Assembly: GCA_030834095.1 (NCBI GenBank)
Contig: JAURGA010000013.1
Coordinates: 1 to 37,265, forward strand
Origin: Candidatus Nanopelagicales bacterium
GTDB lineage: Bacteria > Actinomycetota > Actinomycetes > Nanopelagicales > Nanopelagicaceae
Direction of reading: 5' to 3'
DNA: 37,265 bases
Shown in pieces: positions 24,301-27,513 of the stretch. Made by a program: the position numbers and the translations under genes. How positions within the stretch are numbered: position 1 is the stretch's first letter; every line of letters begins with the position of its first letter. The notes under the pieces were generated by a model. It searched no databases, was not told the origin of the DNA, and saw only the letters and a list, made by a program, of their open reading frames with translations.

Positions 24301-25500
24301 TTACCTTAACTTATTGAGAGCTCGATCTAGTAATAGATCGGCTAGCGTGTCCTTTGATTGGTTCTTACATTCAATACTTTCGCCATTGCTATCTATCAGA
24401 AGTCCAGCAGTTTCATCAGCGCCGAAGATCGCGCCTTCGCCAACATTATTTAGGTAGATTAAATCTGAACCTTTATGTTTCATCTTTGCCTTAGCAGCTT
24501 CGACCCTTTCGCTATTTAGGGGCAACGTTTCTGCAGCAAACGCTACAAGCACTTGATTGCCAGAACGCTTCTTCGAAATATTTGCGAGCAAGTCTGGATT
24601 GGCCTCTAGTTCAATGTTTTGATAATTGCTCTTCTTTATCTTGTCTGAAGAAAAACTCTTAGGTCTTGCATCTGCAACTGCCGCTGCCATAATCAGGATT
24701 TCACATGTCGAAAATTCTTTGTCGAGAGCATCTGCCATCTGTGCAGTCGACGAAACGCTAATCGTTCTGACACCAGGCAAATCATCAAGGCTCGAATTTG
24801 CTGCAATCAAAACAACATCTGCGCCTCGGTTCCTGGCAGCTTTTGCTACCGCATAACCTTGCTTGCCCGTTGAATGGTTAGCGATGAATCTCACCGGATC
24901 AATTGCTTCTCTGGTTCCGCCAGCAGTTACCAGAACCTTTCTTCCAAGAAGATCGGAGTTAATTTTCGCGAACTCTGAAATCTCAGTGATTATTCGTGAC
25001 ACCTCTGGATACCGGCCGACTCCGAAATCTTCACCAGTCATACGACCTTCATCTGGTTCGATCACTAAAAGACCGCGCCTGCGAAGTGTTGCGACATTCT
25101 CTTGATTTGCGGCGCTTAACCACATTTCAGGATGCATCGCTGGAACCAGAACTATCGGACAAGTCGCCGCACTAATAACATTTGTAAGCAAATCATCTGC
25201 AAGGCCGTTAGATATCTTTGCAATTAAGTCGGCAGTTGCTGGGGCGACGACTATTAAATTTGCTTCGCGCGCCTTCTTTATATGAGGAACCTCATGCACG
25301 TTGTTCCAGAGATTTTCATCAACGCTGCGACCCGATAGCGCTTCCCAAGTCGCTGAACCTACGAAGTTCAAGCTTGCCCGAGTTGGGATAACTGAAACCC
25401 CGAAACCTACGTCTTGCAACCTTCGTAACAGCTCAGCAGATTTGTAAGTCGAAATTCCACCGCCCACCCCAAGGATTATTTCCCTACCCAGGAGTGTCAT
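24301..25500 (-). CDS. coaBC: Bifunctional phosphopantothenoylcysteine decarboxylase / synthetase
   Basis: Carries out two coenzyme A steps: joining cysteine to 4'-phosphopantothenate (CoaB) and decarboxylating the product (CoaC). Residues about 1-185 are the flavoprotein CoaC half, with [22 protein letters not shown] (active-site H), [11 protein letters not shown] and PAMHPEMW. The usual ACGD loop reads [16 protein letters not shown] without a cysteine; as far as I recall, actinobacterial CoaBC shares this form. Residues about 190-399 are CoaB, with [28 protein letters not shown] and AAAVADARP. It starts 26 bases after rpoZ with an AAAGGT site and leads directly into metK. Confidence 0.96.
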
Positions 25501-25526: not shown

Positions 25527-25805
25527 TTATTCGGCAACGCTTGCTTCAGGAGCGACTGGCTCCAAATTTTCAATAGTTAGAAGACCCTCGTTGATCTCGC
25601 GAAGAGCGATAGAAAGTGGCTTCTCGTGAACATAGGTTTCAACAAGTGGGCCAACATATTCAAGTAGACCTTCGCCAAGTTGTGAATAGTACGCATTGAT
25701 TTGGCGGGCACGCTTAGCTGCATATAGAACCAAGCTGTATTTTGAACCAGCTGCATCCAATAGTTGGTCGATTGGTGGGTTTGTAATGCCATCCATTGTT
25801 GTCAT
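25527..25805 (-). CDS. rpoZ: RNA polymerase omega subunit
   Basis: A 92-residue omega subunit, which helps assemble RNA polymerase. [27 protein letters not shown] holds the family core (DxLL, SKYxLVxxAAKRAR); I quote it in part as [27 protein letters not shown] segment and an acidic C-terminus follow. ATG 25805 has a good GGAAGG site. Its 118-base upstream gap contains a 16-base tandem repeat and a candidate promoter, so rpoZ may be transcribed separately from gmk, which it follows in the usual actinobacterial order. Confidence 0.96.
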
Positions 25806-25820
25806 GATGTGCCTTCCGTT

Positions 25821-25862
25821 AGTAATTCAAGAATCTAGTAATTCAAGAATCTAGTAATTCAA
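25821..25862. repeat. 16-base tandem repeat in the rpoZ leader
   Basis: AGTAATTCAAGAATCT occurs at 25821-25836 and 25837-25852, followed by a 10-base partial copy (25853-25862), between the rpoZ candidate promoter and its start codon. A perfect 12-base palindrome TATAGATCTATA lies next to it at 25876-25887. There are no spacers, so it is not a CRISPR array. Confidence 0.9.
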
Positions 25863-25923: not shown

Positions 25924-26814
25924 CTAATCAAGCCCTTTGCTTCTAGAAGAGGCTAAGGATAGCAGTGCGGCAGCCACTTCCTCGACTCGATGATTTACCA
26001 GGATCTCATCGAACTCGCCTGAACAGGCCATTTCTTCCTCAGCTAAAGCCAGCCGAGCAGCACGACGTTCTGGCGAATCAGTCCCTCTGGACGTGAGCCT
26101 TTCTACCAACTCTTCCCAAGATGGCGGTGAAACAAAAACAAGAAGCGCATACGGGTCGGCCTTTCGAATCTGTCTAGCCCCTGCAATTTCAATCTCTAAG
26201 AGAACGTGCTTACCAAGATTCAGCGCCTCTGCAACTGCTTCGCGTGGAGTTCCGTAACGCGCACCAGCAAATTCGGCCCATTCAAGAAGAGCATTCTGCG
26301 CAATTAATTGATCAAACTTTTCCTCAGTTACAAAGTGATAATCGCGTCCATCTTTCTCATTGTCACGTGGTTCGCGAGTCGTAACCGAAACACTTACCCA
26401 GATTGCAGGATGGTCGCGAAGATACGAAGTGATTGTGCTTTTTCCAACACCGCCAGGTCCTGACATAACAATTAGCGTTCCAGGGTTTACTGGCACCTTA
26501 TTCAAAATCATCTCACTTCTTAGCTTTTGCAATTGATGTGAACCTAGTCCACCTATTCTACGCGTCTCAGAGATGCCAGCCTTTGCCATTAAAGTAAAAG
26601 TTCTCCTTGACCCGATACCAGGTGCCGCATCCAATAATTCGCGAACCCGCATTCGTTGTATCGACTCTCGACCATCATTGATGACATCGAATATTCCAAT
26701 TTCACCTGACGCTAGAAGAGCTTTCACTTGGGCTCGCTCGCGCCGGGATTCAACAGCCTTCAGTCCAGCTTCCGCTCGTGCTTGCGCACTTAGGATCGGC
26801 GGTTGCTTATTCAC
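25924..26814 (-). CDS. gmk: mIHF-guanylate kinase fusion protein
   Basis: One 296-residue frame combines two proteins usually encoded by adjacent genes. Residues about 5-103 match the actinobacterial integration host factor mIHF: RRERAQVKALL, then MRVRELLDAAPGIGSRR and ISETRRIGGLGSHQLQKL, a DNA-binding H2TH-like fold. Residues about 110-296 are guanylate kinase (GMP + ATP to GDP + ADP), with P-loop GPGGVGKST (119-127), SVSVTTREPR, GRDYHFV, AGARYGTP and LEIEIAGARQIRKADP. The linker between them is about 8 residues. The start is GTG 26814, 3 bases after pyrF. An internal ATG at 26511 (M102) with an AGAAGTGAG context could also yield kinase alone. The neighbours pyrF and rpoZ flank mihF-gmk in other actinobacteria. 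Confidence 0.93.
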   Translation of the reverse strand: MNKQPPILSAQARAEAGLKAVESRRERAQVKALLASGEIGIFDVINDGRESIQRMRVRELLDAAPGIGSRRTFTLMAKAGISETRRIGGLGSHQLQKLRSEMILNKVPVNPGTLIVMSGPGGVGKSTITSYLRDHPAIWVSVSVTTREPRDNEKDGRDYHFVTEEKFDQLIAQNALLEWAEFAGARYGTPREAVAEALNLGKHVLLEIEIAGARQIRKADPYALLVFVSPPSWEELVERLTSRGTDSPERRAARLALAEEEMACSGEFDEILVNHRVEEVAAALLSLASSRSKGLD

Positions 26815-26817
26815 AAT

Positions 26818-27513
26818 CTAATTCAAACTATCCAGAATGGATGCAGCAGTCTCTTTCATGCTGGTCAAAGATATCTTCGCCTGATCTGTAATCGGCCTAC
26901 CGATGACTAAGTAATTTGCTCCGGCTGTCACAGCCTCCTTCGGTGTCATCACTCGTTTTTGATCGCCGAGTTCGGCTCCTGTCGGCCGAACGCCGGGTGT
27001 AATTATCTCTAACTTCTCCCCTACAACAGCGCGGATTTCACTAGCCTCAAACGGTGAACAAACTATAGAACGTGCTCCATTTTCACTCGCCAACTTAGCC
27101 AGTGATGCAGCAGAACTTTTCGTGTTCTTTGCATAGCCAATCTCTACTAAATCCGAATCAGATAGGGATGTAAGAATCGTGACCGCCGTTATTGAAACAT
27201 TAGGTGCGGCATCACTCGCGGCCTTGATCATCGCTGCGCCTCCACTTGCATGGATGGTCAAAAACTTTGGCGCCAGGTCTGCAACGCTAGATACTGCCGC
27301 TGACACAGTATTTGGAATATCGTGAAGTTTTAAATCTAGAAAAGTTTTGAAGTCTCCGGCATCGGCCAATCTTCGTAAGCCATCGGCCCCAAATTTTAAA
27401 TAGAATTCTAGACCGACCTTATAAATACCTATTGATTCATTAGTTACTTCTATCCAACTCTTGGCCGTCTCCAGATCCTTAGTATCTAAGGCAAGAATTA
27501 TTGGTGAATTCAC
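26818..27513 (-). CDS. pyrF: Orotidine 5'-phosphate decarboxylase (type 1)
   Basis: Last step of UMP synthesis, decarboxylating OMP. The 231-residue barrel shows D10 in ILALDTKD, K32 in YKVGLEFY and the catalytic D60-x-K62-x-x-D65 of FLDLKLHDIPNT, plus a phosphate loop TPGVRP and VIGRPIT. This is the type 1 enzyme of Bacillus and E. coli; the longer type 2 form is what I remember from Mycobacterium and Streptomyces. GTG 27513 begins 2 bases after the pyrD stop, and the stop is 3 bases before the mIHF-gmk start. Confidence 0.96.
   Translation of the reverse strand: MNSPIILALDTKDLETAKSWIEVTNESIGIYKVGLEFYLKFGADGLRRLADAGDFKTFLDLKLHDIPNTVSAAVSSVADLAPKFLTIHASGGAAMIKAASDAAPNVSITAVTILTSLSDSDLVEIGYAKNTKSSAASLAKLASENGARSIVCSPFEASEIRAVVGEKLEIITPGVRPTGAELGDQKRVMTPKEAVTAGANYLVIGRPITDQAKISLTSMKETAASILDSLN

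Follow-up and report, generated by a model that had tools for sequence, protein, structure and literature searches.

A single-frame gene joining a nucleoid-protein (mIHF) domain and a guanylate kinase in Nanopelagicaceae

Introduction

The nucleoid protein mIHF is essential in mycobacteria, and guanylate kinase (Gmk) is expected to be so in all organisms. The closest described systems consist of free proteins: (i) mIHF (Rv1388) of Mycobacterium tuberculosis and sIHF (SCO1480) of Streptomyces, of about 105 aa, and (ii) Gmk (Rv1389; PDB 1s4q, 1znw), of about 207 aa. In mycobacteria, mIHF ranks with the most abundant proteins (PMC3724605), and its binding to DNA is transient (PMC10028186). The M. 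tuberculosis locus has the order mihF-gmk-rpoZ (PMC6155035). In several bacterial phyla, Proteobacteria not among them, (p)ppGpp inhibits Gmk (PMC6783271).

The stretch of DNA analysed here as a whole (the window) has 37,265 nucleotides and comes from a Candidatus Nanopelagicales bacterium. Its IHF part has the same operon position as Rv1388, i.e., before gmk and rpoZ (PMC6155035), but it forms the N-terminal half of a protein of 296 aa. Conversely, the kinase of the window carries at its N-terminus a predicted DNA-binding domain of 110 residues. The initial annotation knew of no description of such a fusion, and no paper describing an mIHF-guanylate kinase fusion was found in a literature search.

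One frame with two complete domains

The gene and its two domains are located as follows.

25924..26814, minus strand: fused mihF-gmk gene, 296 aa (open frame, GTG start at 26814-26812)
26512..26802, minus strand: actinobacterial IHF (mIHF/sIHF) domain, residues about 5-101 (NF041260, H2TH_5, PDB 4itq and 6tob)
25951..26481, minus strand: guanylate kinase domain, residues 112-288 (TIGR03263, 210.6 bits; 1s4q fold match)

The frame is uninterrupted from 26814 to 25924 on the minus strand (the initial annotation gave coordinates without strand). From the in-frame stop upstream to the mIHF domain, its GTG is the sole codon of the ATG/GTG/TTG type. Among NCBIfam models, actino_IHF (NF041260) matches residues 6-101 with 87.1 bits (curated cut-off 60; profile positions 3-100 of 102) and guanyl_kin (TIGR03263) matches residues 112-288 (curated cut-off 160.45). 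Both domains being above their curated cut-offs, the initial reading of a full mIHF and a full guanylate kinase joined by a short linker in one frame is confirmed; since they are also conserved across independent assemblies, chance is excluded. Pfam places H2TH_5 at 36-100 and Guanylate_kin at 113-285 of the 296-aa protein. Models of ribosomal protein S13 (Pfam/NCBIfam) give weak matches.

The whole IHF domain (residues 5-101) aligns with mIHF and sIHF; the E value with sIHF (PDB 4itq) is 4e-16, and mIHF (PDB 6tob) is also a solved relative. The kinase domain (residues 108-290) aligns end to end with Gmk Rv1389 and has all the usual motifs, and the fold search matches the kinase half with M. 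tuberculosis Gmk 1s4q (47% identical). The AlphaFold model of the fused protein, built with 32 fused relatives, has a mean pLDDT of 91.5 and a pTM of 0.83. Elsewhere in the window's genome, neither a second IHF domain nor a second guanylate kinase domain was found; this genome has one HU protein and one RelA/SpoT.

Neighbouring genes and the ancestral operon

The neighbours of the fused gene are the following.

26818..27513, minus strand: pyrF, upstream neighbour (family knowledge and synteny; 3 bases between the pyrF stop and the GTG)
25527..25805, minus strand: rpoZ (RNA polymerase omega), downstream neighbour (order matches Tsukamurella)
24301..25500, minus strand: coaBC (dfp), downstream neighbour (synteny with Tsukamurella)

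Downstream of the fused gene the order is rpoZ, coaBC, metK and priA; the adjacency to the gene for RNA polymerase omega was already pointed out in the initial annotation. In Tsukamurella the order is pyrF, mihF, gmk, rpoZ, coaBC and metK, with mihF and gmk separate and two extra genes after pyrF. As the neighbours in the window match the ancestral operon, adjacent genes have merged. In the split relatives mihF and gmk are adjacent or overlapping, and in three of them (L119, L120, L121) they are in frame with each other and only one stop codon separates them, i.e., they are one mutation away from fusion. A fusion would thus need only the loss of a stop or a small indel.

It must be noted that positions 25820-25862 of the window, between the fused gene and rpoZ, consist of 2.7 perfect tandem copies of the 16-bp unit TAGTAATTCAAGAATC.

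Conservation in the family of the window

In the genus of the window a match was obtained for 26 of 27 genomes, the exception being a genome of 60% completeness. None of the 26 has a stop at the junction, which is read through in every one of them. Among the named loci 79/80 are fused, the other one being cut by its contig end. They include Candidatus Planktophila and Candidatus Nanopelagicaceae, and the fused gene is present on the closed chromosomes of the cultured strains IMCC19121, IMCC25003 and IMCC26103, which places the window in the freshwater acI lineage. At the level of the family (f1), representative loci of the order sample served to judge the state of each genus: 10 of 16 genera have an open junction (g1, g147, g148, g149, g150, g154, g155, g157, g159 and g161), and the genes are split in g151, g152, g153, g156, g158 and g160. 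The conservation of the two-domain length across a clade, which the initial annotation proposed to check, is therefore found in the whole matched genus and in most genera of the family. In-match stop codons, which hinted at split genes, proved in most cases to be the terminal stop once the sequences were examined.

The initial annotation also envisaged a stop or a frameshift near 26510 in the raw reads. The junction is open in the independent assemblies of relatives and in closed genomes. The probability that an assembly or sequencing error deleted a stop or a frameshift is practically negligible: no evidence supporting it was found, and the identical open junction recurs in dozens of independent assemblies as well as in the closed genomes.

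Fused genes of the acI type also occur in public MAGs that bear the names Bifidobacterium breve and Streptomycetaceae (L186, L199, L197, L207); these MAGs look misnamed.

Fusion in other families and number of origins

In a class-level sample of 297 genomes, unbroken matches over both domains were obtained beyond the window's family in two families, f81 and f79. The family-wide search gave both domains in one frame in 140/150 genomes of f81, the fused state covering nearly all of the 78 genera sampled, and in 7/59 genomes of f79. For f81, 30/30 fetched loci were confirmed by domain models. The statement of the initial annotation that mihF and gmk are separate neighbours in the actinobacteria known to it does not hold for f81 or for part of f79. 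We infer from the sequences that f81 corresponds to Microbacteriaceae. A Microbacterium protein, WP_223172673.1 (298 aa), has the same two-domain architecture as that of the window (actino_IHF, 69.6 bits; guanyl_kin, 208.9 bits) and its domains are 54-82% identical to those of f81. It is annotated only as guanylate kinase. Some Microbacteriaceae guanylate kinases are listed in Swiss-Prot at about 300 aa, which would fit the fusion. Annotation under the name of the enzyme hides the nucleoid protein, and surveys of gene presence can miss mIHF there.

Long frames of about 298 aa in another family (f17) were considered as fusions and rejected, the mihF region being read in another frame. Eight f81 genomes (G664, G738, G792, G666, G740, G794, G719, G774) match over the kinase only; they represent three genera, two with genomes of 1.3-1.7 Mb and one with genomes of 2.1-2.4 Mb, in which the mIHF part may have been lost or have diverged. 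In two f79 genomes (loci L261, L262), no mIHF was detected next to gmk.

On the tree of both domains, a single origin of all fused genes is rejected (p-AU 0.001), and so is a common origin of the f1 and f81 fusions (p-AU 0.0013). Because the trees reject one origin, the fusion arose at least twice; by the same test the Microbacterium protein and that of the window have separate origins. The f79 fusions may have the same origin as those of f81. One clade for the f1 fused genes is rejected when L071 is included (p 0.004) and is not rejected when it is left out (p 0.21). At least two to three changes of state are needed within f1; these may be fissions.

These distributions bear on why the fusion persists. 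It is quite conceivable, though we lean slightly against it, that the fusion is a neutral by-product, i.e., that the stop between overlapping or adjacent operon genes was lost, that the loss was tolerated since each half continues to function and that the tether brings no benefit. The arrangement of the genes in split relatives (adjacent or overlapping, in several cases in phase and separated by one stop) and the mixed fused and split states in f1 and f79 are in favour of it. Nevertheless, the fusion has been kept in nearly the whole of f81 and in 10 genera of f1, a retention longer than expected were fission equally easy. This reading concerns persistence and is compatible with a protein that performs two functions.

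Key residues, linker and selection

The segments considered here are the following.

26557..26562, minus strand: Arg85-Arg86 within the segment GISETRRIGGLG (fused relatives keep them; in alignment A1, R85 is invariant)
26434..26460, minus strand: P-loop GPGGVGKST, residues 119-127 (G119, P120 and G122-S126 invariant in A1)
26482..26511, minus strand: linker, residues 102-111 (variable sequence)

In the 32 fused proteins the mIHF part has three invariant arginines (R24, R27, R85). The kinase part has K125, S126, R147, R150, Y159, E178, Y187, T189, R239, R243 and R254 invariant, which we take to be P-loop, GMP-binding and lid positions from knowledge of the family. The RRxR segment that precedes GLG is a basic DNA-contact segment in which these arginines are important. 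The window protein keeps the first two, and the third one is Gly, in contrast to mIHF/sIHF. Most fused proteins have another residue in place of this third arginine, and many split proteins are also devoid of it. Its loss as a consequence of the fusion, suggested by raw counts, is not significant on the tree. The DNA affinity of the fused proteins may differ owing to this replacement.

The median net charge of the mIHF part is +9. In close pairs with measurable dS, dN/dS ranges from 0.03 to 0.11 for mIHF and from 0.01 to 0.12 for the kinase, and one near-identical pair is at 0. Both halves are intact and under purifying selection. The conserved arginines, the positive charge and the purifying selection suggest that the mIHF part retains DNA binding. 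It is hardly probable that this part no longer acts on DNA and instead stabilises the kinase or binds RNA (H2TH, S13-like). In favour of it, the H2TH fold is common to ribosomal protein S13, with weak S13 matches, and most fused proteins lack the third arginine; against it, the score exceeds the actino_IHF cut-off, R85/R86 are kept, the positive charge is strong and the genome has no other mIHF.

The linker between the domain ends has 8-13 residues in 57/58 fused genes and 23 in the remaining one, and its sequence is poorly conserved. This variability speaks for a flexible tether and against a rigid coupling that is conserved.

Function of the fused protein

It is likely, on the basis of the sequences, that the stop between mihF and gmk was lost in an ancestral operon pyrF-mihF-gmk-rpoZ, giving one bifunctional protein that would be both a nucleoid protein and the sole GMP kinase, with a flexible tether. 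The N-terminal mIHF module would still bind and bend DNA transiently, the C-terminal kinase would be the only GMP-to-GDP enzyme of the cell, and the tether of about 10 residues would allow both parts to work. The kinase is expected to be active because no other gmk was found in the window's genome. Provided that DNA binding by the mIHF part is retained, it follows that the kinase is tethered to DNA; the kinase pool would then sit on the nucleoid, and the DNA-binding and kinase activities would be made at a fixed 1:1 ratio. If the abundance and the transient DNA binding known for mycobacterial mIHF are valid here, the kinase and the nucleoid protein would be tied in number and place. A sensing or allosteric step is dispensable for explaining the data.

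An improbable alternative is a nucleotide-controlled nucleoid protein, in which GMP, ATP or (p)ppGpp on the kinase alters DNA binding by mIHF, so that chromosome structure would be connected with both the guanine nucleotide pool and the stringent response. It would be consistent with the inhibition of GMK by (p)ppGpp in several phyla other than Proteobacteria (PMC6783271), the one RelA/SpoT of the window's genome, the fusion having arisen more than once and the pTM of the model, compatible with a preferred arrangement of the domains. However, the linker varies in length and sequence, and fission or repeated fusion inside f1 suggests that the coupling is dispensable. A slightly smaller chance still is given to the proposal that the attached kinase sets DNA binding through GMP, ATP or (p)ppGpp and that selection for this link explains the repeated fusion; if true, chromosome structure and transcription would be coupled directly to the supply of guanine nucleotides.

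In the preferred reading, i.e., the bifunctional protein, one polypeptide carries both functions in a large cultured family and in some freshwater bacteria that rank among the most abundant. Owing to the repeated fusion, a link between nucleoid protein and guanine nucleotide metabolism is directly testable in cultivable strains.

Translation starts

A start inside the linker had been proposed in the initial annotation.

26509..26511, minus strand: internal ATG (Met102), candidate alternative start (SD pairing -0.4 kcal/mol; not conserved)

The ATG at 26511 is indeed present, with almost no SD pairing; the best start signal of the window's linker is a TTG at -5.5 kcal/mol. Any ATG is present in the linker of 27/58 fused genes and absent from the other 31/58. 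With expected counts derived from synonymous recoding, and with related sequences whose counts are not independent, an in-frame linker start whose SD pairing is -5 kcal/mol or stronger is found in 25/34 genes of g1, g150 and g149 (11.3 expected), 6/22 of g147 and g148 (3.4 expected) and 0/16 of the f81/f79 fusions (2.2 expected). The linkers of g150 often carry ATG with AAGGAGG, and the split relatives L072 and L121 have AAGGAAG at the place equivalent to the linker SD.

It is rather unlikely that such a start, by retention of the ancestral gmk ribosome-binding site, yields free kinase besides the fusion. The excess in the three related genera g1, g150 and g149, the window's own among them, and the motifs of g150, L072 and L121 point to it; the weak signals of the window's own linker and the counts of g147/g148 and f81/f79, in sequences that are not independent, are against it. 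By clade, extra free kinase is possible in that of the window and improbable in the remaining ones. In several fused genes from cultured clades the linker has no ATG/GTG/TTG with SD pairing, so the kinase is there probably made only as the fusion.

The main starts of the fused genes are mostly devoid of a Shine-Dalgarno sequence, and TAGATT is often found a few bases upstream (e.g., L092, L098, L105), as if the transcript were leaderless.
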